A stretch of 64,000 nucleotides of DNA. Source: Xanthostigma xanthostigma. Its lineage: Eukaryota; Arthropoda; Insecta; Raphidioptera; Raphidiidae. Where the stretch lies: assembly GCA_963575645.1 (NCBI GenBank), contig OY754470.1, positions 9,928,501 to 9,992,500 on the forward strand, given 5' to 3'. Every line of letters begins with the position of its first letter. The first letter of the stretch is position 1. Below are positions 9,954 through 54,520 of this stretch, piece after piece. Below the pieces are notes generated by a model. That model saw nothing but the letters and a program-made list of their open reading frames with translations. It was not told the DNA's origin and searched no databases. The position numbers were made by a program, and so were the translations under genes.

Positions 9954-10176
9954 AGTAGTGTCGTTTAGAGAAGATAGCAGCGTCATTTCTGTGCACTTAC
10001 CAGTTTTGTTTTCTAACTAGGGGTGTTCCTAGGAATATGGTTACTTTGTTGTTCGTCGCAGTACTGCCTATTATTATTCCTGAAATTACGAATCACGCGC
10101 TACAGAAAGCTTTGTCCACTTTTCTTACCACGCAGATTCCCATCTTGCTACTATCTTCTCTAAACGATACTGCTCT
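9954..10176. mobile_element. MITE with TIR TATCGTTTAGAGAAGATAG (copy 1)
   Basis: Left end GTGTCGTTTAGAGAAGATAG, right end the reverse complement of GTATCGTTTAGAGAAGATAG. About 220 bp, non-coding. Other copies are at 16.93-17.18 kb and, with only one end, at 25.53 kb. Confidence 0.75.
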
Positions 10177-12815: not shown

Positions 12816-13220
12816 TTGTCATAAAACTATTTAATAACAGCTATAAAAAAAGCATCTATTATAGTTTTGTAAACCACAGTTCATTCGAGGATTATTAAGT
12901 ACCTGAACATCTGTGTTAAAATGAGTTAAAATAAATTTTCTTCTGTTCATTTTAAAATTACATGTAACGTCTAGACATTAAATCTGACGAAGATACGACC
13001 TTAAGTTTATTGCAGTTTGTCCAACCAGATGTTGCGGCGATCTTGCTCTCTACAATAATTGATTTTTATTAAAGGCACGTCCCGTCATCAGTGAAGAACC
13101 ATGTTGTGGCACAAGGGCATCTGACGTGACCGGATCGTTGAACTTTATTAATGGCCTTTCAGCTTTTTGATCTAAATCAATTGCAAAGGTATAAAATATC
13201 TACTTACATTCCTTTCGCTA

Positions 13221-13707
13221 TCGACCGGGATGACGTAGTGGTGAAAGCACTAGACTCGCACTCGGGAGGTACCGGGATCGAATCCCGGCGGGGGCAGATG
13301 TGGCTGGGACTTTTTCCTGTTGGTTCTCGCCGAGAAACGGTAATTCCTGTACCGGCCACCTTGTTGAGGTTTTTCATGGTTTCTCTCAATATAATTGCAG
13401 ATAAATATCTAGATGTTTTCTTATTCAAGGCCAACTCATATACTCAAAATTTGTCTACCTTATCCTAATGACCTAAAATTCCTTCATTCGCCCATTACTA
13501 TTATTAAGTGGAATTTTAAAATGCAGAAAATAACGGACAGTGTGATAGATGGAAAATAGTAGCAATGGTGCGAATGGCGTCTGTTATGAGAAACGGACGT
13601 TAAACGCATTATTATTATTATTATTACTACTATTATTATTATTATTACTATTACTATTATTATTATTACTATTATTATTATTATTACTATTATTATTATT
13701 ATTATCA
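13221..13707 (+). mobile_element. tRNA-derived SINE with 17-bp target duplication
   Basis: Exact 17-bp direct repeats TTACATTCCTTTCGCTA lie at 13,204-13,220 and 13,708-13,724. The insert begins with a tRNA-like head: A box TGACGTAGTGG (13,231-13,241) and B box GGATCGAATCC (13,275-13,285). A unique body of about 320 bp follows, then an ATT-repeat tail. It is missing from unit B of the duplication. The small open frame across it is incidental. Confidence 0.9.
13608..13705 (+). repeat. (ATT)n tail of the SINE
   Basis: Interrupted ATT/ACT trinucleotide microsatellite forming the 3' end of the SINE. The poly-isoleucine frame on the minus strand is an artefact of it. Confidence 0.9.
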
Positions 13708-14637
13708 TTACATTCCTTTCGCTAAACTGACAAAACATTTATTTATCTAGAATAAAATTGAGATTCTTAAAATTGTGTTGTGCAATTTGAAGGAAGATTT
13801 CCGTGGCACAGGATCATTAAATAAAGCGATACTGATATATTTTAATATTGTATTTATTATAATAACGTTCATCTGCAGAGTTATCTAGAAATAAAATTGA
13901 CAGTAATAGTTATAATTATTTGGGACTTAACATAATGTTTTTAATTTGTAAAACAGATGTTCATAATTTGTAAAACAAATGTTTTCTGTCTGTACTATGT
14001 TGAAAAATATTGAAAAATATTTTTAAAATCATGCTGGAAGTTGTTCTTTTTTGGGGCTTGTTTGAAATGAAAAATTAACTGCTTTGTGCTATTGCTGAGA
14101 TGTTAACGAGACAAAATTTTAAAAAAATGCGTCTTGAATTTATTAAGATCTCGCCAATATTTAAATAATCAAGATATTTAGACGAAATTGCAAACTATAA
14201 GATCGGTTATATATTTAAAAAAAAATGTCTTGGAACTCCTGGCAAATGTGAAACAAATTTAAGCGAAATTCTAGTTACAAAATTTCGCTCTGCTAACTAA
14301 CGAAATTCTAATAGCTAAATATCACCTTATAAATTAATTTCTCCTCCTAAAAAAATTTGGTCTTTCAATTAAACTACTTTGTATACCTATATTCTATGAT
14401 CAAATAATATTACTTTCTCTTTTTAGTGTCATGATATTTGAGAATTCTTGGCCTCTCAAAAATATGTAATTCGTGTCAAATATTGTGCTATCTAGATAAA
14501 ACACATCCTAAATGCATCTTTCAATAACGATGTTTTTTGTTTTGTTTTTGTAAACTAGTTTTATTTTCTTATATCATAATGTGAAATTAGTGAACTACGT
14601 TCCTACATTAGGAACAACAAAATTAGTAATATTAATC

Positions 14638-17600
14638 TTAAACATCTAGTTCATCTTTTGCTTCCATCTTAGTTATTAAAGTAACAATAGAGAATGCAAA
14701 TCTTACTACCTAAAACAATAATTATAAGTCTGTAATTTATGATTTAAAATTATGTTATTTTTGTCGACTTACATCAATCAAGGTTGAATTAGTAACTTCC
14801 ATAACTGCGAAAGCTTTTAATTTTTTAGGGTGCTGACTATTTTGCACCATCAGCATCATTCCTCGACGTACTTTGGGGCTGACATTCCACCATTCACTGT
14901 CATTTATTGCTTCTGCCACGGTTCCGCTCTAAATTTGAAATACAAAAAACAAACTGATAATCACCGCAATTTATGATTATTTAGTTCGATTTGTACATTC
15001 TATCTCGACTATACCAGGTTCTAGGTCGCTTTTTGTAATGTTTTTTCGCGCTCTGGAGTATTATTTTGACTAAAGAGTAGAGCTGTAAAAGTAACGAGAA
15101 ATTGTGTACCCGTATGTATTCGTTACTTAAAGAATCAATACCCGTTACTTTCGTATCGTTACGTTATTCGGTACTTTTGATACGACATACAATAGTGTAC
15201 TTAACAGCATCAAGCAATAAGCATGTAGCTTCGCACCAAAGCGCGTCGCATATGTGATACGACATGAGTCATGACTTAGTACTTTATGAATACTTATAAG
15301 TATAACACATTGTGTTCGTATAACCGTATCAAACGAATCGAACTGACATGGATACGAAACATGCGAGTAACGAAATGAATTTGTAAGTAACGATTCGTTA
15401 CTTCGAGTCAGACGATGTACCCGTTACTCAGTAACGAATACATACAGTTTGTTACAGCTCTACTAAAGAGGCTTTAAAATTAAATTGATAACAAATACGT
15501 ACCTCGTGCTGTAATTCCGATCCGTATATGGTATAGACAGACAGTTGATTTAACATGACTATCATATAACATATACTTTTGACGTTTCGTTCCAAATCAT
15601 CATCCTAAAAAGTTTTTAATTAAAATTACACTGATTAGCGTCATAAATATTTATAATCGTTTTCTATGTGTTAAAACAAAACCTGTCCAATTAACGGTCT
15701 CCTTGTGCCTTCTGAAATATCACAGCCAATAGCGACAATGAAAAAATAGTATACACCACAAGGGCCGAAATTGTGATATTTTTGCCCAACGTGCCATGAT
15801 ACCTGAGACGAAGCCGAGGGCATCATGACGTGAAGGGCAAGGTATCACACTTTCGGCCAGTGTACCTCGGTCGTAAGCACGTTTATTAGATACATTACTT
15901 ATTAATTACATAAAAACACAGATAAATCCCAAGCAAAAAGCTGTGAGGTTATACGTAAAAGCATGAATACAGCTGTTCACGACTATTAGCTAAAATGTAA
16001 TAGGGTTGCGATCTAAACAAGAGTTGATTGGTTGTTTTTGCTTTACTACCGCACGAACGTTCGAACATCCCGTATTGGTGCGTGTAATCCCACCAAGGAG
16101 TAAATGTCAGACTTTCTGCTTTACAATTGATGCCGAAAGTATGCACTTTCGATCGAGGTATGAAGAAAGAAATGTTTATTTAGCGTTTCTGCTCGTCTAA
16201 TAAAACCCACAATTTCCAGGTTTAAATATATCAATTAAAGTTTTAGTTTACTAAAAAATATATTAACAAAACGAAAATGTCAATTGACACTAAATAATAT
16301 AATCCTGACGGAAGCTGTTAAGAATTATTTATTTATTTTTATTTTGATGGTGAAGAAACATCGTTATTTTCAATTTAAAAGTTTTATGTTTAGATTTTTT
16401 TTCCTTAATAATGAATAAAATATACATAGGTCTCTTTTAAAAGAGAGCTATTTTTGCGTATAGCTTTCACAAGAAACCCCGATCTTTTGTGTTTTTATCA
16501 TCTTAGTCTACATAAAAAAATACTAAAAAAATTCCCATTTCACCGAACTCGAACAATAGTACATTGGCACTAGATCCACGTAACCCTAGCTCTTGATAGA
16601 ACAATGACTACGAATCGTTTACTAAACTAAAATTACTTTTAATATTATGACTTATTTTTGAAATCTACAAGTGCGCCTGTTTGGCATAATTCACTGTTAC
16701 AATAATGCTTACAGCCATAATTAAATATCCCAGAATACAAATTATCAAAGCCATCAAACATAATTGAAATCCCAGCATTATTTCGTAATTTTCTTTTATT
16801 TCTTCGGAGAAACTGAAAAAGAATACACATATGTAGATAATAAAATTATCCACGTCTTCGAAAAAGACTGATTTTTAACATCGCAGCGGTAGGTACTATT
16901 TGCGCTGACATTATTATTCGTAAAACTATTGTATCGTTTAGAGAAGATAGTAACAAGGTGGGGAATCTGCGTTGAATGAATAATGAAAAAGAGATCAGTA
17001 GTGGAGTGATTTGTAATTACAGAGGGGTAATCGCAGACGCTATCTGCACTGTCATTGGTGCGTCTCGACGAGCGACTAACAACTGAATGACCAAATTCAT
17101 AGGATCACAAACATAGAGTCGTCCTACCCTCAACTCGTTTGTGCGCAGAAATGACGTTATCATCTTCTCTAAGCGATACTACTCTAACGGGACTGCTAGC
17201 ATCGCGAAGTTACGTACTTTATTGGGCGGGGAGTATTAACCATAGAAATATAAGTAACTAGAGTTCGCTAGTTCGTATGCTTGCCATAAGTGAAAGTGTC
17301 CTCAGTTGAGGGAGAGAAAGATGTAGCGGGTCCAGAAAACCAGATATATGTTTACTCAAATCAGCATTGTTTTGTATCATTAGTTACCACAGAGATAAGG
17401 AACTTTTCTCTTTCTGAATTGCAGACACTTTCACGGCTCACTCGCGTCCTCTAGTATAATATTTCTATGGCATTTACAGAACTCGCCTCTGACTGAGCCA
17501 TAGGAAAACATATCGGCTCGTTCTGCAGGAAAATTAAACGAATACAATTTACGGAACAACACCGAATCGGCCATTTACCGAAATACAATTTGTCGAAAAA

Positions 17601-20600
17601 TCCACCAAAGCTTCGAATATTACCCGCTTTAGTACTTGTGCCGGTATAAAGAGGAGTACAAGCTTTTGTAGCAACCTGTGATTTCGAATTATTTCGAAGA
17701 AACTTGAATCGGAGATTCCCAGCGACGGTGAGATATTTTTCAGTGAACTGTATTCGTGTAATTTTCCTTCGGTGATCTATTTTCAGTGAATTTTCCTTGA
17801 TTCTTCAAAAACACCCGACGATTTAATTATAATACTGAAAATAATGGGAAGCTGCATTACCGGTTTAATTTTATGTGATGATTAACACACGAAATCAAGT
17901 CTTCAAAAGATTTTTTATCGTCGTTCATGTTCGTTTCTTCTCTACCAATCGTCCTTAGTTTGCATTTCAATAGTTTGTATTGCGCCAATGTAACTTGCAC
18001 AAAGAAAGCAAAAAGTAAATCATATCCCGTTATTCCACACACAGCGACTATATAGCTAACAAAAATCATGACGGCTGCTATTTCATAATTTGGACTCTTC
18101 TGGTCATCAAACGGCCACCTAAAGAAATGTTGTAAACCATTTTTAACCGGCTTCAAAAAAGAGAAGGTTCTATATTCGACGCGTATAGTTTTCCCTCTAT
18201 AAAAAAATCAATGATTTTCCAAAAAAACGGGAAGAGTTATTGTTTTCACCCTGATTTTCGAAAGTCGAGTTTTCGTCAGATCTCAACGTTTTGAGGTCCT
18301 AGGAAGCTATTCTGTCTATTTTGATGATGATGTCAGTAAGGCTGTATGTGTGTGTGTACGTAACGATGTGTTTGTATAAACCTATTTTTATACTTTTGAA
18401 CAGGGGTCCGATTGCAACGCAGTTTGCTGAACTTAGATTTCCTGAAAATTTGAAATAATTCGACCCAGTAGATTTTGAGAAATCTCAAAAATAAAATTTC
18501 AAAAATTTTTAGAAATTTGTTTTTTTAGAATATTTTCTAAATTTCTTTAGTGACCCTTTTTTGAAGGAGGTTCAATTTTTCAAGTTTTTATTTTAATTAG
18601 AGTCCATAGAGATGTACACATAATATTTAAACAGAAATAAAAATGTACCTACCTTCCCAATATTTGAAGTGATCTTTCCTTCCCTTCTTCTAACATAAAA
18701 GGGAAGAATGTATATAAAAAAACTGTTGCAATAGACATGAAAGCGTAAATGGCTGCTATACGCACTTCCAAAAACATTTGCTCATTTATTTGCGGAGAAT
18801 CAGACATGCTGTCAAGTGGCCAAAACTCATAACGCACTGTATTAAGCATTTTTCGCAAACGAGCTCTGTTCCATTGAGCAAATACTAACTTAGCTACCGC
18901 CTGCAAATAAAAAATGAATAGCACAAAATTGAGTGAAAGTACACTAGGAGTCATTTCGCACTAAGTCCAGACAAGTTATGTCTAATATCATTCAAAGCAC
19001 TTAGCACGCGAAAATTGTACGTCAGAATGCAACGAAAATGGATGCATGCATTCTATGATCTAATTCACAAAAAAGAATAAAATCGAAGCAATACACATTT
19101 TTCGAAGCACCTCCCTATGTATGAGGCCCTCGCGCGTTAGAAGTAAAACTTCTTAAATTCTAGCATTTGTTGTCGATTTTATTATTTCCGGATTAGAAAA
19201 TTTTGTTGCCGTGGATAATGACAATACTACGTACCGCGCATGCGTGCAGAGTGCGCATGATGCTTTGACAGAGAGAGTAGAAACGATTCCCCCACTCTTT
19301 GAAAATGTATCAATCATTTTTAAGCTTCGTGCATTGAGTATTCTAAATATACACATATATCGCTGGCAAAGATCGGGAGAAAGACTTAAACACTACGGTG
19401 CAGACATATATACGTCTGTCTCACTTATTATACTCTGAGTCTCGTGCGCTTGTCCGTGTATGGATGCGCGTCAGTTGCAGCGTCAGCTTGCACATGGAAC
19501 TAAGGACATGTTCTATTTTGGTAGCCAGGTAGCGGCGACTAGCAGGTCACGTGACTCACTCGCACCCGCTACCACCAGCGAGCAGCGCAGTCTGACCGAA
19601 GCAGTGCATTATAGGCGAGTAAACCATCACGTGCCACGTGGTTTATGTTCGATGTATGTTGTGATAATTCTATCTACAATTGACAGCCACAACTCGCGGT
19701 AGACTATAGCGAGTAGGAGTCGTAGTGTGACCGGGCTGCCCGCCGATGCTTGCTGGTGCTACTGTCTGCCGCTGATCAGCAGCGGCTGACAAGCAGCCTA
19801 GCAATATAGAAGTTATTAAATAGGTACATGAATATACTTATATTATACTGTGTAATGTCCATCTTACCACATATAAACAAGTCATCGTTGAAAGTGCTGC
19901 AAAAGCGTATAGAAAATTATCTAAATGCGCTATTGCGAACAGAAATTGACACACACCAAGCCCTATATAGAGGCACATCCAAAATATCCAGCATATGAAA
20001 TACCATAAACTGTTCTCTTCTGGCCATGCAAACGCACCATTGAGACAATATTTGGCAGGTTTAGATGCCCGTTCTACTATCCGAAGATGGTTATCTATAA
20101 AAATGCAATAATAAGATCTTTACAAAGCCAAGAAACATCCAATAGAACCGTTTTCTGTTCTGAGTGTCATAGGGACTGTGTATTATATGAATATACTTTT
20201 TTGTGATCTATGTGTTTAATATTATAAAGAGGTAAAGTGTGTAAAGTTGAATGTAGGAAGTACCTAATTTCCGAAAGTATTCATCCGATTTACAATTTTT
20301 TTTTCAAAAATATTTAGAAGTGATCTACGGGAATCGGGATGGACATAGGCTATATAGTATTAAGTTAAAATAAAAGTGCTTTTCGTGGAGATAAATTTTC
20401 TACTTAAGTCGACTTAAAAACAGCGGAAACCTACAAATACGGACAAAGCCGGAACGGTTAATATTAAATGCAGATTACGCATAAGTGCTAACCTTGAACA
20501 AAAAAAAACGGTGCATAACTGCTAGGAAAATAGTATATTTACTAATATGTGTACCTAATTATAAGAATTTTAACTTGTTTTTATCAATCCCAAATCTGCA

Positions 20601-21089
20601 CCAAATTATAATATATAAACCGATTGGTACCCATAGGCAAACTGGTGTTTTCAAAAATTTTTTAAGCCTGGTTTTTATCTTGTTGATTTTTTTAAATCTT
20701 TACAAATGTTGGTGTTTTTGGGTTTATAATTTTTTTCCTTGCCTGAATAAATACAACACTAAAATGGTTCCTTTTAAATAGACCTCGTACAGTTACGGGT
20801 TCTAACTTGTAATATAAATAGTCAATTCCAAAAATTATGCTAAATTATTCAGGATAAAGTAAATCGTCGAGATTTTGTGGTTCAATCAACCGACGCGACG
20901 CCAATATAGTGTATTATGTGCCATTTCCATAATAGAGGCAAATATACTAATGACGTATGTAAATCGTAAATATATAATGTAGTTTTGGAGTAAAATAAAT
21001 GTAGATTTGTTTTTTTTAAATTTTCGTGTTATTTCTTACTGACCTCGTTCGGAAATGTCTTCGGATTTTCGAGCTTTTGCGGAATTCAT
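14638..21089 (-). CDS. Odorant receptor A (7tm_6), 8 exons, 402 aa
   Basis: This is an insect odorant receptor, expected to form a ligand-gated cation channel with Orco in sensory dendrites. Exons (minus strand, 5' to 3'): 21,089-21,044; 20,094-19,868; 18,900-18,653; 18,118-17,861; 16,812-16,713; 15,604-15,503; 14,928-14,773; 14,709-14,638. Every junction has GT donor and AG acceptor, all phases join, and no stop occurs. The start is MNSAKARKSEDISER in exon 1. Family signs: many hydrophobic segments, and a C-terminal half with YTIYGSELQHE, then SEWWN, then PKVRRGMMLMVQ. This corresponds to the conserved YxxxGxxL, D/SW and xPxxLxAx region. The stop follows KDELDV. Lengths of the middle six exons equal those in paralogue B exactly. 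Intron 1 is 949 bp here but 138 bp in B because of inserted DNA. Ligand unknown. Confidence 0.93.
15078..15462. mobile_element. Non-autonomous hAT element, 385 bp, in intron 6 of receptor A
   Basis: Inverted ends TAGAGCTGTAAAAGTAACG and (reversed) TAGAGCTGTAACAAAC, flanked by the 8-bp duplication CTAAAGAG (15,070-15,077 and 15,463-15,470). Unit B has the uninterrupted site TTGACAAAAGAGGC. Many internal GTTACTT/AAGTAAC motifs; no ORF. Confidence 0.9.
15735..16195. repeat. Insertion block in intron 5 of receptor A, related to 8.2-8.4 kb
   Basis: Absent from unit B, where the flanking sequence ATATCACACCCAATAGC runs on into different sequence. It contains GGGCCGAAATTGTGATA and an inverted partner ATCACACTTTCGGCC, then GGAGTAAATGTCAGAC and CGATCGAGGTATGAAGAAA, shared with 8.39-8.44 kb. 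It is probably one or two transposon fragments. Confidence 0.5.
16929..17184. mobile_element. MITE with TIR GTATCGTTTAGAGAAGATAG (copy 2)
   Basis: Left end GTATCGTTTAGAGAAGATAG, right end ATCTTCTCTAAGCGATAC. About 255 bp in intron 4 of receptor A. Its left part, with the following GGGGAATCTGCG, is also in unit B at 25.53 kb, so it predates the duplication. Confidence 0.75.
17240..17470. mobile_element. MITE with TIR CCATAGAAATAT
   Basis: Inverted ends CCATAGAAATATAAGTAACT and (reversed) CCATAGAAATATTATACT, each followed by AGAG. About 231 bp, non-coding, in intron 4 of receptor A; not seen in unit B. Confidence 0.7.
19440..19800. other. GC-rich island in intron 2 of receptor A
   Basis: A stretch of clearly higher GC than its surroundings, with E-box-like CACGTG (GTGCCACGTGG), GTCACGTGAC and several CAGCAGCGGCTG-like words. 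It has no counterpart in unit B. The short open frame at 19,460-19,702 has no recognisable domain. It may be part of an unidentified insertion that fills intron 2 from about 18.98 kb. Confidence 0.35.
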
Positions 21090-21327
21090 ATTAACACGGC
21101 AAATATAAAGCTACTGTTTCAATTCGGTTTAGAATTATCTTTTTATATACATCTTGAAATTATATAACATTATTAATAATTTTTATTTGCTTTGATGTCT
21201 AAGAGGCATAATTAACTTATTACTTAGTTGTAGCTTGTATTAATCGAAATGTATTTATTTATTTATATATATAACGTTTTACACATAATATATGTACAGC
21301 GTGTTCACCGAAAGTGGTAACGGTGAA

Positions 21328-21815
21328 TAATAATAATAATAATATTTTATTTCACCACATTGACAAAAGAGTATATGGCATGTCCATAAAAAATTTAGAG
21401 TTACATATTAAAAAATTCATTAATGCTATAAAATTCTCTGCTTACTAAATCATTCTTTAACTTACTTTTCATGGTTTGCAATGGCAAAGATTTGATTTCA
21501 ACTGACAGATGGTTGTAAAGTTTGATACAGTTATAGAGCACACCTTTTTCAAAGGTAGTCAAGGAATGATCTGGCAAGCGAAAGTCATTGTTTCCCCTGG
21601 TGTTATACTTATGTAATAACTGATGGTTACTGAAAAGGCTAGAATGTTCTTTTACGAAAACAATACATTCATAGATGTATACAGAAGGCAGTGTCAGGAG
21701 TCCAAGAGCCTTAAAGATTCCTCTGCATGATTGTCTGGCGCTTAATTTGGCCATAATACGTATGCATTTCTTTTGTGCTTTGAAGATTAGCTCTGTATTA
21801 ACAGCACCCATAATT
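21328..21815 (-). mobile_element. 5'-truncated LINE fragment with (ATT)n tail
   Basis: The minus strand encodes a 136-residue C-terminal piece of a non-LTR reverse transcriptase (FKAQKKCIRIMAKLSARQSC, then HKYNTRGNNDFRLP, then YNCIKLYNHLSVEIKSLP), ending at 21,401. The 3' end is AATAAAATATTATTATT, a trinucleotide tail. The layout resembles the C-terminus of the full LINE at 53-57 kb (YNTRQNK, IYNKLPKSIR). Unit B lacks it: GATGAATAATTCGTGTATC is continuous there at 28.14 kb. Confidence 0.85.
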
Positions 21816-21996
21816 AAATTCGTGTATCAATCTGCTGAGTTATATTTTTGGTATTTCAAACTCGACCGGAAGTCTACATGCATGTTTTTTCAAATAGTAA
21901 CATATAGTTTTTTTGCAATTTCAAAATCTATTTTTTCTCTATAAATTCATATAAAATTTTCATAAGGATACATTTGAAAATATCCAGAAAAAAATT

Positions 21997-22204
21997 GGTT
22001 GTCTATAAAGTCGGTTTACGGACGAAAGTTTTACGTGATAACGTATTCCGTAATACATAACCTAAATTTTAGTAGCTGTCAAACTTGGGCCGAAGCATAC
22101 TGCGCTCTCGCTTGCACGCACAGGGTCAGGCGGAACGTTAGGAACGTTACACTTTTTCGTGCGTGCAGCTGGTGTTTCATCAATTTATAAGACGTTATCA
22201 CGTC
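21997..22204. mobile_element. Short copy of the GGTTGTCTRTAAAGTCGG element
   Basis: It starts GGTTGTCTATAAAGTCGGTT and ends GACGTTATCACGTC, with ACGTGATAACGT near the left end forming an inverted partner. A longer (553 bp) relative is at 39,855-40,407. The flanks are AAAATT and AAAATG; unit B has the uninterrupted GAGAAAATTGTTATCAAT at 28.29 kb. Confidence 0.8.
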
Positions 22205-23425
22205 AAAATGTTATCAATGTAGTAATTGTATTAATTGTAGACGCTGATGAACTTAGATGCGGACCATCTACGATCAACAATCCATTTTCTTTAGTTCTAT
22301 CAATTTCTAACTCAAAATGCAAAATGATGAAATGCGTGTAAAATTGTCGCATGGACATCCCCTATATTATGCACATTTGTACAATTATATATGTATGTAT
22401 TTTTTAACTTTGATGTCTAAAATGACATCTTACATTAATTATACATAAACAACAATTTTTAATTAAGTAATACCTCAAATTAAAAAGCTATTTTTAATGT
22501 GTTAATTGATTTCTCTTCTTAGTGAACAGTTATTGATAACACAATGTAAAAATACTAGAGAAAACATTATTTCTGCACTACTCGCTCTATGAAATACCTG
22601 TTTTATGAGCCCGTAAGATGTACCTAAGATGACCCATGATCCACTAGTGTTGTAATGAAAAACAAAACCGATCGCGCTGTACTGCAGGCATGAAAAGCGG
22701 ATATTTTTTAGGGTCGTGTCGAAAAAACAAATTCTACATCAATGGAACTGATGGTGTTATATTTTAACATTATCTTTCCTGTAGCTGTGTGATGATTTTA
22801 CAGTTCATGTTGTTCTGATACCATATGAGTATACCACAGATTATTGCTTCAGTGGTATAGACAATCTAAGCTCAGACAGTGGTACAATACTGGCAAGAAA
22901 TTAAATAAATATAATTAATTAAATAGATAACAGATATTACAATTTAACTTATTACAAGATTATAATATAAAATTGCCTTTTAAAAGAATAAATATTTATT
23001 ATTCAGACAATTTCAAATTCATCTAATAACAGGTTTTTAAATATGATTTAATTTTATATGACTTCACTACCCAAGCGTTTAAAACAACAAAAAACAATAT
23101 TACCCACTAGTCGTAAAACATTTACTTTTATTAAGCATTGAGATGGGGTGCAGAACAGTACATTTAATAAATATAATAATTAACTAGACCCGAACCATCA
23201 TTAATCAATAGTTTTTTTAATGGATTGGAAGTTCATTAGCCATTTAAGTTACATTTTAGATTTAAATTGTTGTGCAGAAAAGTATTTTCAATTTTATATT
23301 TATATTTTAGCTGTTGTCAACGTCTTTGTTGAACATTTTGTGATTTCCCTTAGCGTCAACCTTTTTCAATATTACTTAAAAATTTTTATGCGGTGAGGTT
23401 TGTTCTCGATACTATTTTTTCATAT
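22205..23425. other. Non-coding tail of duplication unit A
   Basis: Aligns with 28.3-30.17 kb in unit B, for example ACAGTTCATGTTGTTC, then GATACCATATGAGTATACC. No gene was seen in either copy. Confidence 0.6.
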
Positions 23426-24329
23426 TTGCAAAGGCATAAAATATCTACTGGCATTTTTATCGCTAAGTCTGATTATTTACACAGATAATTAAACTGCCTT
23501 TATTTAGAGTAAAATTGAGATTCTTAAAATTGTGTTGTGTTTGAAGGAAGATTCGCGTGGAACAGGGTCATTAAATAAAGCGACACTGATATTTAAAATT
23601 GCATTTATTATACTAACGTTCATCTTCAGAGTATTCTAGAAATTAAATTTACATAATAGTTATAACTATTTGAGAGGTGGCATAGAGATTTACAAAAAAA
23701 TATTGTTTTTAATTTGTAAAGCAGACGTTCTCTATCAACACTTTGTAGATTTCTAAAGTCATGGTGGAAATTATTTTTTGTTGGGGCTTGTAAATGAAAA
23801 AATAACTGCTCAGTACTGTTGCTGAGATGTTAACGAGACAAAAATTAAAAAAAAAAACGTCTTGACTTCGTTACGATTTCGCCAAAACCTTCGAGAAATT
23901 TAGACAATAATGAAAATAATAAGATCGGTTATATATTCAAAAAAAAAAAAAATGTGAGCCGCCGGGGAACTCCTGGCAGATGTGAACCATTTTAAGCGAA
24001 ATTCTAGTAACTAAATATTGCTTGTAAATTAATTTCATATACCGTAAAGAAATTAAACCTTGTGATGTTTTTTGTTTTTTACTAAACTATTTTGTAAATT
24101 CTTACATCAAATACTATTATTTTTTATTTTTAATGTCATGATATTTGAAATTGTCTAGTTCTCTGTGTTCTCTCAAAGAGATGTAATTCGTGTAAGACAA
24201 ATGTCCTAAATGCATCTTTCAATAACCATGTTTTTTGTTTTGTTTTTTAAACTAGTTCTATTTTCTTATATCATAATGTGGAATAAGTGTACTACGTTCG
24301 TACATTAGCAACAAAAAAAATTAGTAGTA

Positions 24330-27300
24330 TTATTCTTGAACATCTAGTTTAGCTTTTGCTTCCATCTTAGTTATTAAAGTAACAATAGAGAATGCAAATC
24401 TTACTACCTAAAACAATAATTATAAGTCTGTAATTTATGATTTTAAATTATGTTATTTTCGTCGACTTACATCAATCAAGGTTGAATTAGTAACTTCCAG
24501 AACTGTGAAAGCTTTTAATTTTTTTGGGTGCTGACTATTTTGCACCATCAGCATCATTCCTCGACGTACTTTGGGACTAACATTCCACCATTCACTGTCA
24601 TTTATTGCTTCTGCCACGGTTCCGCTCTAAATTTGAAATACAAAAAACAAACTGGTAATCACCACAATTTATGATTATTTAGTTCGATTTTTACATTCTA
24701 CCTCGGTGAAAACAGGTGCTTGGTCGTTTTTTTATGTTTTTTTCGTCCTCTCCAATAATAATTTGACAAAAGAGGCTTTAAAATTAATTTGTTTATAAAT
24801 ACGTACCTCGTGTTGTAATTCCGATCCATATATGGTATAGAGAGACAATTGAATCAACATGATTATCATATAACATATACTTTTGACGTTGCGTTCCAAA
24901 TCATTATCCTGAAAATGTTTCAATTAAAATCTCACTGATTAGCGTCGTAAATATTTGTAATCGTTCTTTATGTGTCAAAACAAAACCTTGTCACTCATTA
25001 ACCTCCTTGTGCCTACTGAAATATCACACCCAATAGCTGTTTACAAGGATTTTAAAATAACTGTTCTCGTAGAATTATCGTTATTTATATAGAGTTTATG
25101 CTCGGCTATTGAAAGTTAAAACCCCCAATTTCTAGATTTTAATATATCAGTTCGTTTTTCAGTTTAATATGAAAAATATGCATTGGTACTAAATAACCAT
25201 GATCGAAGCTATTAAGAACTAATTTTAGTGCGCCTCTGAATGGTAATGCTTAGAATAATTCATTGTCACAATAATGCTTACAGCTATAATTAAATATCCC
25301 AGAATACAAATTATCAAAACCTCCAGACACAACTGAAATCCCAGCATTATTTCGTAATTTTCTTTTATTTCTTCGGAAAAACTGAAAAAAGAATATATGC
25401 AGGTAATAAAATTATTCTCGAAAAAAACAGGTTCAAAAGAATATATGCAGGTAATAAAATTATTCTCGAAAAAAACAGGTTCCCAAGTTTTCGGCGGTAC
25501 CATTTGCGCTGACATCATTATTCGTAAAACTATATCGTTTAGAGAAGATAGTAACACGTTGGGGAATCTGCGACGAATGAAGAGTGGGAAAAGCGTTCAG
25601 CAGCGGCGTGATTTGTAATTTCAGGGCTAATCATAGACGATATCAGTACTGTTATTGGTGCGTCTTGACTAGTGATGAACATTACTAAATGGCCATTTTT
25701 ATAGGATCATAAACATGGACAAGTTGACAGCTCAGTAAATTGCGAGTTCAGAGAAAAAATTTTCAGTGAGCTGCATTCGTTAAATTAGCATTCGGCAACC
25801 TATTTTCGTTGAATTTTCCTTGATCTTTCAAAAAGTACGCAGACTGGATGAACTAATTATATTACATACTGAAAAAATAATGAAAATCTACATTACCGGT
25901 TTAATTTTATGTGATGACTAACACACGAAATCAATTCTTCAAAAGATTTTTTATCGTCGTTCATGTTCGTTTCTTCTCTTCCAATCGTCCTTAATTTGCA
26001 TTTAAGTAGTTTATATTGAGCCAGTGTGACTTGCACAAAGAAAGCAAAAAATAAATCATATCCCATTATTCCGTTAACACCCACTATATAGCTCACAGAA
26101 ATCATGACGTATGCTATTTCATAATTTGGACTCTTCTGGTCATCAAACGGCCACCTAAAAAATATTTTTAATCGACTTCCAAAAAGATGAGGTTCTTTAT
26201 TCGACGCGTATAATTTTACCATTCCAACCTACAAGTGGGGAATGGTACTAGTTTTTCAATATCTTTAGAAACATATTTATAGTATTTTAAACTAATAAAC
26301 AATGAAAAAGATTTTATTTACTGCAATATTGTTTCAATGGCTAATAATAATCATTACGATTACAGTAAAAAATTATGCTGTAACTGGAATTTAATCGTAA
26401 TGATTATTATTAGCCATTGATATTTATAGTAGTTATAATTAAATAGACTTCGAACTCAATTTGATATTGTACGCTTTTCAGTGACTTTTTTTGAAGGAGG
26501 TTCAGTTTTTTAAAAATTTTCTTAAATCCTTAGTATTAAGTAAGTGAAAAGTAACTCTAATAATTTAGAGTGACGATGATCCTGTTTAAATGTTGAAAGA
26601 TTAAAGGATGAATCCTGGTGCCTATTTTACCAGGATTCCTCCTTTAATCTTCCAACATTAATGTAAGTGATATACCTACATAAGATATTCAAACAGAAAT
26701 AAAAATATACCTTCCCAATATTTGAAGTGACCTTTCCTTCCCTTCTTCCAACATAAAAGGGAAGAATATATATAAAAAAACTGTTCCAATAGACATGAAA
26801 TAGTAAATGGTTGCTATGCGCACTTCCAAAAGCATTTGCTCATTTATTTGTGGAGAATCAGACATGCTGTCAAGTGGCCAAAACTCATAACGCACTGTAT
26901 TAAGCATTTTTCGCAATCGAGCTCTGTTCCATTGAGTAAATATTAACTTAGCTACCGTCTGCAAATAAAAAATTAATAGCGCAAAGTTTGTTGAATATGC
27001 GTTTTTTGCACATACCGCTGAACTGCGGTAGGTGCTCTATTATCGCTTTGTGCGTCAGAGCTGACTTTCGTTCATAAAAGAAGTTATATCTAGGTTAATT
27101 TTGCACTAAATCCATTTAAATTGTAGCTTTTTGAATAGAGGAGATTCTGTTCTATAAAACAGAACCATTTTTAGATCGGTTCGAGTTCATAAGTACCACT
27201 AAAATTGTAATTGAAAATCACGAACAGCAGTTGTCGGTTGGTCTGTACGTATGTACGTACGTACGTACGTATGCACGTCACGACTCTACAGATCGCCATT

Positions 27301-27907
27301 TTGGTCGGATCCACTTGGGTTACATTTTATTCACTTTGTTTACTATCAGACCAGAACCCTATTTAAATTCACTAAAATGTGTTTAGTAGTTTAATTTTTA
27401 TAAACAGTTTTATTTTTTTTCATCTATTGCATATCACATTAAAACGATTTTCTTACTACTTAATTATACGGTTATACACTGTAATATGCATCTTACCACA
27501 TATAAACAAGACATCGTTGACAGAGCTGCAAAAGCGTATAGAAAGTTATCCAAATGCGCCATTGCGAATAGAAATTGACAGACACAAAGACCTATATAGA
27601 GGCACATCCAAAATATCCAACATACAAAATTCCAAAAACTTTTCTCTTCTGGCCACGCAAACGCGCCATAGAGAATATATTTGGCAGGTTTGGATGCCTC
27701 TTCTACTATTCGAAGATGGTTATCTATAAAAATGCAATAGTAAAATCTGAATATAGTCAAGTAACCTCCAATAAAGCCGTTTTTCGTATTGAAATTAGAT
27801 CATCAAGAAGATTGAATCTACTTTTTTGTGATATTTTTATTTTCGTGCTATATCTACTAACCTCGTTCGGAAATGTTTTCGGATTTTGAAACTTTTTCGG
27901 AATTCAT
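24330..27907 (-). CDS. Odorant receptor B (7tm_6), 8 exons, 404 aa
   Basis: Tandem paralogue of receptor A. Exons (minus strand, 5' to 3'): 27,907-27,862; 27,723-27,497; 26,958-26,711; 26,154-25,897; 25,381-25,282; 24,908-24,807; 24,626-24,471; 24,407-24,330. All have GT/AG borders and consistent phase, and no stop lies inside. The start is MNSEKVSKSENISER. Exon 2 uses the acceptor TTTTATAG; the nearby ATTCAG would hit a stop. The C-terminal core is YTIYGSELQHE, SEWWN, PKVRRGMMLMVQ. By eye about 41 residues differ from receptor A, many in hydrophobic segments (10 in exon 2, 8 in exon 3, 8 in exon 4). The soluble block LLKCKLRTIGREETNMNDDK is identical. A CAA where A has its TAA stop adds a tail ending DVQE. 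Compact introns suggest it is nearer the ancestral layout. Ligand unknown. Confidence 0.93.
25391..25482. repeat. 48-bp tandem duplication beside the exon-5 acceptor of receptor B
   Basis: GAATATATGCAGGTAATAAA continuing to AAACAGGTTC occurs at 25,391-25,434 and again at 25,439-25,482. Receptor A has one diverged copy at the same place (16.82 kb). It lies in intron 4, about 8 bases upstream of the acceptor AG on the gene strand. Confidence 0.9.
25529..25720. mobile_element. One-ended copy of the TATCGTTTAGAGAAGATAG MITE (copy 3)
   Basis: Left end TATCGTTTAGAGAAGATAG followed by TAACACGTTGGGGAATCTGCG matches copy 2 at 16.93 kb. The right end is missing, so this copy was truncated after the duplication. 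Confidence 0.65.
26335..26419. repeat. Hairpin repeat, 85 bp
   Basis: CAATGGCTAATAATAATCAT followed by TACGATTA is mirrored by TAATCGTAATGATTATTATT followed by AGCCATTG. In intron 3 of receptor B; no counterpart in A. Confidence 0.75.
26590..26659. repeat. Hairpin repeat, 70 bp
   Basis: ATGTTGAAAGATTAAAGGAT then AATCCTGG is mirrored by CCAGGATTCCTCCTTTAATC then TTCCAACAT, with a loop of about 11 nt. In intron 3 of receptor B, absent from A. Confidence 0.75.
27246..27275. repeat. (GTAC)n microsatellite
   Basis: Tandem GTAC/GTAT tetranucleotides in intron 2 of receptor B. Confidence 0.9.
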
Positions 27908-28507
27908 ATTAACGCTGCAAATATAAAGCTACTGTTTCAATTCGGTTTAGAATTATCTTTTTATACAAGGCTTCAAATTATATATTATTAATATTTTTTA
28001 TTTGCTTTGATGTCTAAAAGGCATAATTAACTTATTACTTACAGTTGTCACTTATATATTAATTAAAATATATTTATTTATTTATACTCGTATATAGCTT
28101 CACACATATACAGTGTGTTCACCAAACGTGGTAACGATGAATAATTCGTGTATCAAACTGCTGAGGTATATTTTTTTGTACCTCAAAATCAACCGGAAGT
28201 TCTTCAAATGGCCACCTATATTTTCATAATCTCCATTTTTTTTCTATAAATTCATATAAAATCTTAAAGGTTGCATAAGAAAATATTCGAGAAAATTGTT
28301 ATCAATTGATTAATTAAATACACAGTAGTTATAGACGCTGATGAACTTAGATGCTGAGTATCTATTATCAACAATCCATTCCCTCGAATTCTATATCAAG
28401 TTGTGTCTCCCAAATCGATTATTCAATCTCCCAAACCAGTCAGTTTCTAACTCAAAAGATAAAATAAAGAAATGCGTGTACAGTTTTCGCGTGAATATCC
28501 TCTATAC

Positions 28508-28762
28508 CAGGGGCGGGCAAATCTTTTGATCGGCGGGCCACATATCTGATGACCGCGGGCCGTATGGCTGATGAAAATTTCACCGCGGGCCAAAAACTTG
28601 CAATTTGCAGAGCAAAAAAAAAGGTCCTCACATTCTATTTCCGCATTTGGAGAGCAAAAAAAAGTTAGTATTTTTCTTAAATTTTCTAAAATGCTTCGCG
28701 GGCCCGACAAAATTGCGCTGCGGGCCGGATCCGGCCCGCGGGCCGCCATTTGCCAAGGCCTG
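28508..28762. mobile_element. Non-autonomous hAT element, 255 bp, GC-rich
   Basis: Ends CAGGGGCGGGCAAATC and (reversed) CAGGCCTTGGCAAATGGC, flanked by an exact 8-bp duplication CTCTATAC at 28,500-28,507 and 28,763-28,770. Rich in GCGGGCC motifs. Unit A carries the empty site CCCCTATATTATGCAC at about 22.36 kb. The small frames across it are incidental. Confidence 0.92.
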
Positions 28763-30174
28763 CTCTATACTATGCATATTAGTACAATTATATATGTATT
28801 TTTTTTTGTCTTTGATGTCTAAAATGGCATCTTACATTAATTATACATAAACAACATTTTTTTATTAAGTAATACCTTAAATTACAAAGCTATTCTTTAA
28901 TGTGTTAATTGATATCTTTTCTTAGTAGACAGTTATTGATAGCACAATGTGAAAATACGGAGGATAACATTATTTCTACACTACTACGTATAAAATAGCT
29001 TGTTTATGTGCACGTTCACAGGCGTGTAAGATAGCCCATGATGCACTAGAGCTGCAATGAAAAACAAAACTGATCGCGCTATATATAGGCGTGAAGAGCG
29101 GATATTTTATAGGGAGGAGTGCAAAAAACAAATTGTATATTATTGGAACTGACAGTGTTATATTTTAACACCCTCATTCCTGTAGCTGTGTGATGATTTT
29201 ACAGTTCATGTTGTTCCGATACCATATGAGTATACCGCACATAAATTGCTTCAGTGGTATACAGTATAAGCTCAGACAGTGGTACAATACCGGCAAAAAA
29301 TTAGCTGATATTTGTAATATAAAATTGCCTTTTTAAAGAGTAAATATTTATTATTGAGACAATTCTGAATTCATCTAATATTACTGGGTTGCAGAATGGC
29401 TTGTCCAAAATATTGATTTGATTGATTGACTTTAAATTGTGATAATATAATTACAGTTTTCTTGCATAATTGGAAATCCCGTCATTGAGATTGTACTCAC
29501 ATAAACACAAATGATTGACCTACACAGAAAAAACCGCTAAATTTTTATCAAAATGTGTAGATTAATGTTGTTTTTAAGTGGAAACTATACAAAAAACAGT
29601 CCTTAATACATTTAAGCGTAGTTTGGAAAAATATCGCTTCAATCGATCAATTATTTTTCGAGCAGGATCGATTTAAAACTATAGGCTATGCTTTTCATAA
29701 GAAGAAATATTTAGGTATATTCACAAACTAAGGTCATTGTCAAATTAAATTTTTTGACAATCTTTTCTGCAACATAGCAATATGTCTCTTAAAATAATTA
29801 TATTTGATATGGCTTCATTACTCAAGCATTTAAACCAACAAGAAAAAATATAACTTTTGAGTATAAATTTTGAGATGGGGCACAGGACAGTTCATTTAAT
29901 AAATATAATAATTAACTTAAGACCCAAACCGTCATTGATCAATAGTTTTTTCATACTTTTTTATTGCATTTAAAGTTCAATAGCCATTTAAATTACCTTT
30001 TAGATTTAAATTATTGTCCAGAAGTGTACGTTCAATTATTATCTATATTTTAGCTGTTGTCAACATGGCTCATGTCGAACATTTTGTAACTACCTTTAGC
30101 GTCAACCTTTTTCAATATTACTTAAAAGTTTATATGCTGTGAGGTATGTTCTCGATACTATTTTTTCATATTTT

Positions 30175-36129: not shown

Positions 36130-37070
36130 CATATATAAAAAGAACTCTTGTGTAAAATTTCATACTTCTAGATCCACCGGCTTAGGCTATGCGTTGTTTG
36201 TCATTTAGGTTTTATTAAGTAGAATAGTAGTAAGTGGTCCAAAAAACATCTCTTTTGATTTTAATCATTGTAGTTTCGTACATCCTTTGCAATTACTCAA
36301 ATCATGCAATTTCCAGAAATGCAATTTAGATCAAGCTATTTAAACTATACCTAGCTTGTTTGGAAACTGAGATTAACGACGCAAAATGGTTACAAAAAAA
36401 TCTATCGTAATTTATATTACTTATGAATAGAAATGTTTCTGCCATAAATACGTTATTATGTTATAAGCCTCAAAACATATGGCGTCATTTTTTTTAATTT
36501 TTATGAACACAAATTTTATGTTTACAATATTTACAATATTATCATAGCACAATTACGAATTTCTAGGTTAAGGTATGCTATTTGTCAGCCAACGAATACA
36601 ACCAACAATTTAGCTCATTAATACGTCATACTTACACTACGGAACCCTATCATGTGTGTGCCCAACATGCGCTAGGGCTAGCCCGATTTTTTTTATTACA
36701 GTATGTAAATCTATTACTCCACACTTTGTAAACCACAATAAATTATTTGACGTATTTTACTAGCATCATTAAACAAATTAGTTCTGATAGAGTTAATCTA
36801 ATTTAAATTAGACACGAGTAGTTCTGTACAGCGCTAGTGGCATTCTTTACCTTCTGTTATAAACTTTATAGGGGAAAACTATTCCCTAATAACGGCATAT
36901 ATACCGGATAGTGTAAAAAAAGGAAAACGCAACCTGGAAAACTGCACACCGCAAATACTTAATAGACACTCTTTCAACCGATGTGTCGCTCAAAAACAAA
37001 CGAGCATTCTATTTGTCTGTTTGCAAAAACGATATGCAATTTCGTATTTTTTGTATTTATTATGAGAGAT
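36130..37070. other. AT-rich stretch, no gene recognised
   Basis: No coding, RNA or terminal-repeat signal recognised. Confidence 0.4.
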
Positions 37071-37592
37071 AATAGTATATTGTGCGACTAGTGAGAGAAG
37101 GAGAAGATTCCATGAGCGTGAAATTTGCCGCACGAGCGCAGCGAGTGCGGTAAAACACACGCGAGTGGAATATTCTCCTTCGATCAATAGTCGCACATAA
37201 TACTTTATTCAACTAGCAGGAGTAATATGTAATCGGGGCCCTGATAAAAGAGGGAAAAATAATAAATCACTTCATTGATTGACGTACCACCGTCAGTGTA
37301 TACACAAGATTGCCATGATTTCGCTGAATTGCGATGCTGTTTTCATATAAGTATACAATACCGCCTACCACGTTCCTATTGGTCCAGAAGCTACTTGCAG
37401 TTTTTTTCATTATTTAGCGCTTGGGCTTGCTACTGAGTTTCTATTGGTCCAGAAAATTCATTATTACACTAGTGAAGTAATATATTATTTCTCCCACGCC
37501 AGAAAATTCATTATTACACTAGTGAAGTAATATATTATTTCTCCCACGTTTAGCAGGGCCCCGAAATTACATATTACTCACGCGTGTTGAAT
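37071..37592. repeat. ~510-bp repeat unit, copy 1 of a tandem pair
   Basis: Begins AATAGTATATTGTGCGAC and ends ACTCACGCGTGTTGAAT. It contains a large imperfect inverted repeat (AGAAGGAGAAGATTCCA versus TGGAATATTCTCCTTC, both next to GTGCGAC/GTCGCAC), the word ATCGGGGCCCTGATAAAAGA, and repeated CTATTGGTCCAGAA. The short frame on the minus strand is incidental. Confidence 0.85.
37449..37548. repeat. Perfect 50-bp tandem duplication
   Basis: CCAGAAAATTCATTATTACA running to TTATTTCTCCCACG occurs at 37,449-37,498 and is repeated without a difference at 37,499-37,548. It is not duplicated in the other two copies of the host repeat, so it is recent. Confidence 0.95.
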
Positions 37593-38090
37593 AATAGTAT
37601 ATTGTGCGACTAGTGAGAGAAGGAGAAGATTCCATGAGCGTGAAATTTGCCGCACGAGCGTAAAACGCACGCGAGTGGAATATTCTCCTTCAATCAATGG
37701 TCGCACATAATATTTTATTCAACTAGCACGAGTAATATGTAATCGGGGCCCTGATAAAAGAGGGAAAAATAATAAATCACTTCATTGATTGACGTACCCA
37801 GCGCCCTCGATGCACACAAGATAGCCATGAATTTCGCTGAATTGCGATGCTGTTTTCATATATACAATACCGCCTACCACGTTCCTATTGGTCCAGAAGC
37901 TGCGTGCAGTTTTTTTTTTCATTATTGCACGCTCGGGCTTGCTATTGCGTTTCTATTGGTCCAGAAAATTCATTATCACACTGTACGGCTCATTATTAGC
38001 ACTCTACGCGTCAACATGAAATAATCTATTATTTCTCCCGAATTTAGCAGGGCCCCGAAATGACATATTATCTACTCACGCGTGTTGAAT
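37593..38090. repeat. ~510-bp repeat unit, copy 2 of a tandem pair
   Basis: Starts at AATAGTATATTGTGCGAC directly where copy 1 ends and closes with CTCACGCGTGTTGAAT. Same internal order as copy 1, with CGCCCTCGATGCACACAAG where copy 1 has a shorter variant. Third copy at 62,684-63,155. Confidence 0.85.
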
Positions 38091-39290
38091 AAAAAAATTT
38101 TCACGTAGCTAGACATTAATTTGGACTCTGTACTTTAGAAACAAAATACAGATTATTCAAAGAAAAAAGTTCTTCTTCTTGCTAAATTTCTTGGTTCAAC
38201 ATGAATACTTTTTTATTGAATGTTTTTACGAAACAATAGGTATATATTATTAATATACTTATTCATTTTATTTTCCTCAATCAGTGCTGTGGACAAGGTC
38301 AAATACCGGTCTCGGACCAATCAAAATTTTCTGCAAAACATTCACCGTAGTTCAGCTATTAGATGACCGTCTCTAACACGAGTTACCTATTAAATATTCT
38401 CGCATTTTAATAATCTGTTTGCAACAAAACATACCTATTAAATTTATTTCTAATGAAACGATACACTGCACTAAGTTTAAATAGATTTTCTTACGCGACC
38501 TCCCTATAAAACAACTGTCCTTCATGCCTGTGTAGCGATAGTAAAATGATCCATTTTGAACTAGTACGTAAAGTAAAAAAATCGAAACATAGTCGTACTA
38601 AAAAATCCTTTTGGGAATTTTCATCTGTAGACGAGCTAACCACGTAAAAGACGTAACAATTTTTTTGTACAAATCGGGCGTATCCCCTAACCAAAATTTT
38701 ATCCAAACTCTTATATAAAAAGTAATTGAACTGTTTATTTGTACACCCAGTATATATCTTTTAGAGCGAAAGGGTATACAGCAATGCTTTTATATATTAA
38801 ACTGTGTAGTTCTTGCAAATTCTTGAAATTATTTAACACTTTATAATCATGCCACATACACACACATTCCTTTGTTTAACATGCATGCAGTGAAAACACA
38901 TTTTTCGCACTACCCTTCTGCTGTACATAAATAGTTAACAACTATTATCGCACAACGGAAATTAACCACTTTTTGCAACAAAACTTAGAAACTTTTAATA
39001 GAATCTCTGCAGTATAAATTTGTTAAAAAAGTAAATAATCAACGGCATATTAAATTTTCAATACCGTATCTTTAGTATAATATAGTAACAAAACTGACAA
39101 AACTGTTCTTCGTTGATGGTTAAAATATTTATTTACAAAAAGAAACGTTAACAAAAACTTAAAGTGATTCTCTATAATAATGCAAAAATGAAATAATAAT
39201 AACATAAATAACAAAAAACAACAATTACAACAATCAACTACTACACCACACAGAACATATATATCTCACAGATGTCTATTTATCTCTATA
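38091..39290. other. AT-rich stretch, no gene recognised
   Basis: No domain in any frame; the 71-codon minus frame at 38,491-38,706 has no recognisable feature. Confidence 0.4.
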
Positions 39291-47400: not shown

Positions 47401-48084
47401 GTGTTTTGTCAAAAAAAAAAACTGTTTTCGTACCATGTAGCGACATCGGGTAGAATTTGCTCAAATATAGTTCAGACATTTCTGCGCTGTAGTCGTTTTC
47501 ATAGACACGTCTTTAATGAAAAACATTTTGCACACTTTTACATACGTTTTAAACATTTTTGCTCCCATATACCTACTTTTGTACCGCGCAGTCAGTGAAA
47601 AAATTTTAGGAAACATTGATCGTGAAGTGGAACCAGATTACTTATCTGCATTAAATTGTTCTAAACAGATACTATTTTATAATACGCGCCACGAAACTAA
47701 AAGGCTCGGAAGTTAGATGCGAATGTGGCCTTGCGCTTATGTACAGTCTGTTGAAAAACTACAAACTCGCTAGTCAACAAAACTAAAATAAAAATAACAA
47801 CTTGACAATAGCGTACTCGATTGTACTTTAAAGCAGGAAAGCGACAAGTGACAAAGGCAACGAGCGATAACGGCCAATCACCGACGTGCGCACGTTCCGT
47901 GCAGGTAGCTGGGAGGTGTTGGCAGTCTCAACGGCTCTAAAATGTGCCTTTGTGACGCTGTTTATGACTAACCTTCCGTGGCGCGTATTGTACATGCGGC
48001 GGTACAGCATAAGTTCGTTTATAGCGAAAAATGCAGGTTTTTTCAACTTCAGCAAAGCCTAATAATGGTTTTATTTTGTTTCAG

Positions 48085-48300
48085 ATATATAGCGATAATG
48101 GATCCACTTCGACCTCGAATGGGTCGACGGACCACATTGTGTATAGCATGTGGAATTTGGGTCCTGAGTACGATAATGTCGTGTCCAAATCTGGTGTTCT
48201 TCACCACATATGATCAGAAGTTAGGAGAGAATGACGTCAGGATAATCTGTTATTCAGAATGGCCCGATGGGCCCACAACACAATCATATCACGAATATGT
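48085..48300 (+). CDS. Tachykinin receptor, exon covering DRY-TM4-ECL2 (partial gene)
   Basis: Rhodopsin-class neuropeptide GPCR exon. The acceptor TTTGTTTCAG precedes it and the donor GTAAGT follows at 48,301. The first base completes the Arg of the DRY motif, then YIAIMDPLRPRMGRRTTLCI follows. TM4 is ACGIWVLSTIMSCPNLVFF, and the second extracellular loop holds the Cys expected to pair with TM3 (RIICYSEWPD). RYxAIMxPLRPRM is diagnostic of the insect tachykinin receptor (TkR99D/DTKR type) rather than the natalisin/TkR86C type. The exon ends EYV with two bases (GT) of the Val codon, completed by the exon at 63,738. Open frame upstream of 48,085 is intron. Exons for TM1-TM3 were not found in the window. 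Confidence 0.92.
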
Positions 48301-48802
48301 GTAAGTCTTTAATATATCAATACATACAACCGGATATATGCGAATTTTGTTTTATAAGTAATGATTTAAAAAATAGAAATCCTATATATATATTTATATT
48401 TAAGCGTACTTACAAAACAAGAATCAAGAGCTTAAGGAATTGCGTGCATAGGTATGAGTAACTCAACTGATAGGCAATAAATAAAATTAAAAATTAAAAC
48501 ATCAGAGTGCTTTTGTTGCCTCCATTTTCCGCCTTTACAACAATGATAGTGTCTCCAAGAACGGTCATAAAAAGAAACCATTAATTTTAATGTATATAAA
48601 CCGAGTATCGGTGTAAAGAGATAATTTATGAATATTGTGTTCATAAAGCAGTTCAGTGGCGTGCAGCGGCGACACAGTTTATTAAAGTCATTTCTTTTAT
48701 TTTCGCATAAATTTCGTTTTTTGTTAAATACATTTTCATTGGTATCAATTTTTATTTTTATTTATTATTCTCGATATACATAAGAAACATGGAACAGTTT
48801 TA

Positions 48803-49060
48803 GCACCCTCACTCTCAATCTCACTCTTTGACCTCACCCTCAATCTCACTCTTTGACCTCACCCTCAATCTCACTCTTTGACCTCACCCTCAATCTCACT
48901 CTTACCCTCACCCTAAACCTCATCCTCACCTTCAATCTCATCCTCAACCTCATCTTCAACCTCATCCTCAACCTCATCCTCAACTTCATCCTCAATATCA
49001 TCCTCAACTTCATCCTCAACTCTATCTTCCACTTCATCCTCAACTTCAACCTCAACATCA
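48803..49060. repeat. Minisatellite in the tachykinin-receptor intron
   Basis: About three copies of a 25-bp unit (CAATCTCACTCTTTGACCTC plus ACCCT) pass into a 12-bp unit CTCATCCTCAAC repeated many times with variation. Open in several frames on both strands, which explains the repetitive Leu/Asn and Glu/Val predictions; not a gene. Confidence 0.95.
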
Positions 49061-54482: not shown

Positions 54483-54520
54483 ATCAGAACGTTCATTCTC
54501 GTCATCTTAATACTATAAGT

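Follow-up and report, generated by a model that had tools for sequence, protein, structure and literature searches.

Tandem duplication of a predicted odorant receptor gene with readable edges in Xanthostigma xanthostigma

Two abutting copies and their predicted genes

The window, meaning the whole stretch of 64,000 nucleotides analysed here, is animal DNA with spliced genes, and it is AT-rich (32% G+C from base counts). When the window is compared with itself by BLAST, collinear direct matches run from 13,742/23,499 to 23,427/30,173. They belong to two units that lie head to tail:

13183..23427, minus strand: unit A of the duplicated pair, 10,245 bp
23428..30173, minus strand: unit B of the duplicated pair, 6,746 bp, with no bases between it and unit A

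A global alignment forced on units A and B has 6,237 gap-free columns at 75.0% identity, a figure that includes stretches without real similarity (41-59% identity, in the central parts of introns 2 and 3 and at 21,373-22,364). The final 37 columns of this alignment are 94.6% identical. Blocks picked around the BLAST matches (hereafter anchored blocks) comprise 4,662 columns and are 85.4% identical, a value biased upward because the blocks were selected for similarity. Outside the units there is no such resemblance: the 1 kb to the left of the A start aligned with the 1 kb to the left of the B start no better than shuffles did (66 of 200 reached the observed score), and the same was true of the 1 kb to the right of the B end and the 1 kb to the right of the A end (35 of 200). 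The locus is therefore a tandem segmental duplication, with two direct abutting copies and single outer flanks. A preliminary description of this DNA had proposed these head-to-tail units, and the self-BLAST, the alignment and the flank shuffles bear it out; similarity past the outer edges, which it had named as evidence to the contrary, was not detected in the 1-kb flanks.

The edges can be read almost to the base. At the start of A, ...GATCTAAATCAATT is followed by GCAAAGG; at the A/B junction, ...TTCATATTT is followed by GCAAAGG; and at the end of B, ...TTCATATTT is followed by TCCTAC. B does start directly on the A end, as had been described, with the junction at 23,427/23,428 rather than 23,425. 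The B-start word quoted in that description occurs once on the plus strand, at 23,428. Its counterpart opening unit A (GCAAAGGTATAAAATATC) is present and differs by one base, and the first duplicated base of A is 13,183 if two ambiguous T's are assigned to the flank and 13,181, the position originally given, if they are not. The A-end word of that description is found in two places, 23,411 and 30,157, so it does close unit B, where the last duplicated base is 30,173 and not 30,174.

Each unit holds one predicted odorant receptor gene, and the genes are accompanied by two short noncoding blocks that are identical in both copies:

14638..21089, minus strand: predicted odorant receptor gene A, 402 aa encoded in 8 exons, with GT-AG ends at all 7 introns
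21044-21089, 19868-20094, 18653-18900, 17861-18118, 16713-16812, 15503-15604, 14773-14928, 14638-14709, minus strand: exons of gene A
24330..27907, minus strand: predicted odorant receptor gene B, 404 aa encoded in 8 exons, with GT-AG ends at all 7 introns
27862-27907, 27497-27723, 26711-26958, 25897-26154, 25282-25381, 24807-24908, 24471-24626, 24330-24407, minus strand: exons of gene B
21099..21147 (A) and 27917-27965 (B), minus strand: 49-bp block that stops 9 bp short of the ATG and carries TATAAAAAG at the upstream end
22776..22815 (A) and 29177-29216 (B), minus strand: 40-bp block, 1.7 kb (A) and 1.3 kb (B) upstream of the ATG

The gene models are based on the agreement between the two copies, on splice signals and on the protein family. 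Exon lengths are equal in the two genes except for the last exon (72 nt in A versus 78 nt in B). Gene B lies upstream of gene A in the direction of transcription, with 3.2 kb from the B stop codon to the A start codon. Both proteins (2/2) match Pfam 7tm_6 (PF02949) over profile positions 4-313 of 313, with E-values of 8.1e-43 for A and 4.5e-44 for B and scores of 147.1 and 151.2 bits against a curated cut-off of 25.8. The sequences of solved structures were searched with protein B only, which matches seven distinct sequences at E up to 1; six are named odorant receptor, Orco or OR, and one is MhOR5. The best of these are 8v3c_D (OR28, E 2.3e-12) and 8v00_D (OR10, E 1e-11), and the weaker matches are Orco chains, ApisOR5 and MhOR5. 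In a simple hydropathy scan we saw several hydrophobic stretches and no clean set of seven. Both predicted genes appear intact and functional-looking. A pseudogene in either copy was considered and rejected for the predicted models, given their open frames and GT-AG introns. A and B would presumably be transcribed and act as odour-gated channels with Orco.

Within the 49-bp block, TATAAAAAG is TATA-like and precedes the ATG of both genes, and we regard this block as a putative core promoter. The 40-bp block is possibly a regulatory element. An AATAAA-type word is common to A (13,853) and B (23,604).

Using tblastn with both proteins, we found no match outside the two units in the window below E 1.5, a search that distant relatives could escape. 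Pfam likewise found 7tm_6 in 0 of 23 other frames (of 190 stop-to-stop frames of at least 60 aa), and here too distant receptor relatives may escape. Among viral contigs, no relatives of protein B fit the patterns used.

Several other features lie elsewhere in the window. On the plus strand, 47972-48301 is an exon-like frame that matches Pfam 7tm_1 (E 4.3e-9) and, among 21 solved sequences, matches the substance-P receptor best (E 6.2e-9); it probably belongs, as an exon, to an insect gene for a tachykinin-like neuropeptide receptor. Near it, 48804-49061 is a minisatellite with the 25-bp unit CCTCACCCTCAATCTCACTCTTTGA and shorter units. A non-LTR retrotransposon occupies 53358-57388 on the plus strand, with a PHD finger frame followed by an endonuclease and reverse transcriptase frame, and these are the only two start-to-stop frames of at least 150 aa in the window. 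Two adjacent repeat copies, 84.5% identical, lie at 37069-38102, and a third copy is found about 25 kb away at 62678-63168.

Divergence of the copies

Proteins A and B have the same residue at 361 of 402 aligned positions (90%). Estimates of dN and dS are 0.053 and 0.190 by NG86, 0.052 and 0.193 by YN00, 0.048 and 0.154 by LWL85, and 0.052 and 0.166 by ML. The four methods give dN/dS values of 0.27-0.31, so protein change has been held back, which suggests that purifying constraint acts on both copies. In the anchored blocks, noncoding columns differ by 17.0% (K2P about 0.20) and coding columns by 7.5%.

The copies also differ in their inserted elements:

13221..13707, plus strand: A-specific insert, presumably SINE-like, with a 17-bp target-site duplication (13204-13220 and 13708-13724) and an empty site in B
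15078..15462, no strand assigned: A-specific insert in intron 6, presumably hAT-like, with inverted-repeat ends and the 8-bp target-site duplication CTAAAGAG
28508..28762, no strand assigned: B-specific miniature insert, presumably hAT-like, with the 8-bp target-site duplication CTCTATAC and a similar uninterrupted site in A
21332..21816, minus strand: A-specific insert 5' of gene A (less certain), with an uninterrupted counterpart in B and no clear target-site duplication
29378..29783, no strand assigned: B-specific segment (less certain), with 44-nt inverted-repeat ends that are 77% complementary, absent from A
16931..17179, no strand assigned: inverted-repeat-ended element in intron 4 of A, whose first part aligns with B, up to 25719

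For all three inserts with target-site duplications (3/3), the other copy has a similar uninterrupted site; that of the intron 6 insert is CAAAAGAG in B, one base different from CTAAAGAG. Read by eye, the SINE-like insert has a tRNA-like box B and an ATT tail, and ARAGORN found no tRNA in it. By eye, the insert at 21332..21816 looks like the 3' terminal part of a non-LTR retrotransposon, and Pfam found no match in it. Since the first part of the element at 16931..17179 is in B too, this element probably predates the duplication; a further copy lies inverted at 10068-10170. Neither RNA families at the gathering threshold nor tRNAs were found.

Unit A is longer than unit B by 3.5 kb, a gap that the preliminary description had put down to later insertions. 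Private inserts are indeed present, three of them with target-site duplications and empty sites, but together with those duplications they account for 0.90 kb of A and 0.26 kb of B, a net 0.63 kb, or 0.71 kb when the two less certain inserts are included. Later insertions were therefore rejected as the entire cause of the gap, most of which consists of intron and flank length differences that are unpolarised: A-specific segments in introns 1, 4 and 5, and central stretches of introns 2 and 3 and of 21,373-22,364 that are unrelated between the copies. These could be the result of deletion or replacement in either copy.

Two introns of gene B contain small repeats of their own. Intron 4 has a perfect 48-bp tandem duplication (25387-25482, two copies), and the 100% identity of its copies suggests that it is recent. 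Intron 3 has inverted repeats at 26334-26420 (29-nt arms, 100%) and 26589-26659 (31-nt arms, 94% complementary), and the stretch that holds them is without similarity to intron 3 of gene A.

Divergence between the copies is lowest in one tract at the 3' end of the gene:

14506..14992, minus strand: low-divergence tract reaching from the 3' flank through exon 8, intron 7 and exon 7 into part of intron 6, a gene-conversion candidate

In this tract 22 of 486 columns differ, a score reached by 0 of 2,000 column shuffles; across settings the result was 0/2,000 in most cases and 0.047 for noncoding columns alone under the strictest mismatch penalty. The longest gap-free run between A and B (419 columns, 228 of them coding) is located there, as is the lowest noncoding 100-column window (3 differences), and the two copies of intron 7 have 2 differences in 63 columns. 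Between 14,640 and 14,975, 4/110 noncoding columns differ, versus 584/3,343 outside (Fisher P 2.5e-5, for a tract chosen post hoc). Between the coding parts, dS is 0.065 in exons 7-8 versus 0.224 in exons 1-6, third positions differ at 3/75 and 39/327 (P 0.057), and amino acids at 4/75 and 37/327 (P 0.14). When single columns were permuted, the lowest window had P 0.005; permuting blocks, which preserves local rate variation, gave P 0.053 (10 columns), 0.087 (20) and 0.189 (30). Gene conversion over exons 7-8 is possible, and the tract could instead reflect local constraint on the 3' end. That the pair is a mosaic, in which gene conversion keeps the 3' exons 7-8 alike while exons 1-6 diverge, is a tentative reading that we hold slightly on the doubtful side. 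In solved receptors the C-terminal part lines the pore and contacts the co-receptor. We take exons 7-8 to be this C-terminal part and exons 1-6 to hold the odour-binding part. If the pair is a mosaic, receptors A and B would combine a common channel machinery with changing odour specificity.

Origin of the duplication

The sequence shared at the junction is 2 bp, in keeping with the earlier estimate of at most 2-3 bp. At least 2 bases are shared by 19.5% of 200,000 random pairs of places in the same region, so microhomology was rejected as a positive signature, and blunt joining fits as well as microhomology does. The junction does not distinguish between slippage, end joining and template switching. 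The preliminary description had ascribed the receptor pair to one event, by exchange at microhomology or by slippage; the tandem anatomy agrees with this and a single event is the simplest account, while microhomology as the cause is not supported.

It is very probable, in our judgement, that a whole odorant receptor gene with its promoter was copied by one non-homologous tandem duplication, followed by private insertions and by divergence under purifying selection. The unit ends, their exact abutment, the open frames with splice signals, the coding constraint and the private inserts are the observations here; from them we infer the singleness of the event and the repair pathway. The ancestral segment, about 6 kb or more, would have contained one complete receptor gene flanked by about 2.3 kb on its upstream side and about 0.9 kb on its downstream side. 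A single non-homologous event, either end joining or template switching during replication, would have placed a second copy beside it in the same orientation. Because each daughter gene received its own promoter, splice sites and 3' region, both would have been kept intact and, with purifying selection acting on them, would then have diverged until their proteins were 90% identical. Transposons would have inserted separately into each copy afterwards.

False tandem duplications occur in assemblies of heterozygous insects, and two alleles of a heterozygous locus may be joined head to tail in this way. Ordinary allelic divergence is usually a few percent at most, and the noncoding divergence of 17% (K2P about 0.20), the many indels and the private inserts put this pair well above it. 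An artefact of this kind would also be expected to bring flanking sequence along, whereas the edges here are sharp, so we consider it very improbable. Unequal crossing-over (NAHR) between homologous repeats around a single-copy gene is well known to produce tandem gene copies where genomes are rich in repeats. It requires homology between the sequence to the left of 13,183 and the unit ends, where we find 2 bp shared and 1-kb flanks that score like shuffles. The repeats may have decayed past recognition. We give this route marginally less credence than the assembly artefact. Larger in scale is the idea that a receptor array arose through repeated events and then contracted, with the pair as its remnant. 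Large tandem odorant receptor arrays exist in ants, according to a preprint (PMC12393541). Against such a history, the tblastn search of the window detected nothing that could be a further array member, within the reach already stated, and a single event explains the ends most simply; we regard the remnant as unlikely.

Against the single non-homologous duplication that we prefer, a third copy may conceivably have been gained and then lost. Insect receptor families expand through tandem duplication, and the breakpoints of old, fixed tandem pairs are often unreadable by now. The duplication is a known kind of event and appears to be an ordinary but well-preserved case of insect receptor family growth. 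Since the edges, the junction, elements that predate or postdate the event and the two genes, both apparently intact, are readable together, the order of events (element insertion, duplication, private insertions and possible conversion) can be tested in relatives. Among the papers listed by the literature searches, where coverage of subscription papers is thin, none deals with this locus, and we do not claim its absence from print.

Comparison with known systems

The pair resembles tandem insect odorant receptor genes (PF02949, 7tm_6) in consisting of whole-gene copies, head to tail on one strand and both predicted intact. It is unlike such genes generally in that only two copies are seen in the window and the breakpoints are readable.

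For copy-number variants in Drosophila, one source (PMC4056370) reports that 41% of the breakpoints show microhomology of at least 2 bp at simple ends and 35% are blunt, that the role of homologous recombination (NAHR) is negligible, and that the variants form largely without long homology. The A/B junction fits this breakpoint spectrum. The comparison is a loose one because the variants in that source are mostly short and few are tandem duplications; they are also segregating, whereas the A/B pair is diverged (dS 0.15-0.19) and spans several kb.

Ant and bee odorant receptor tandem arrays show transcriptional interference, and ant tandem receptors interact through read-through and antisense transcription, as stated in the preprint (PMC12393541). 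Like the genes of these arrays, A and B are same-strand neighbours, with B upstream of A. The arrays are known with their transcriptional interference, whereas the A/B pair is known here from sequence alone. With B located 3.2 kb upstream of A, a transcriptional interaction between B and A similar to that in ants is conceivable.
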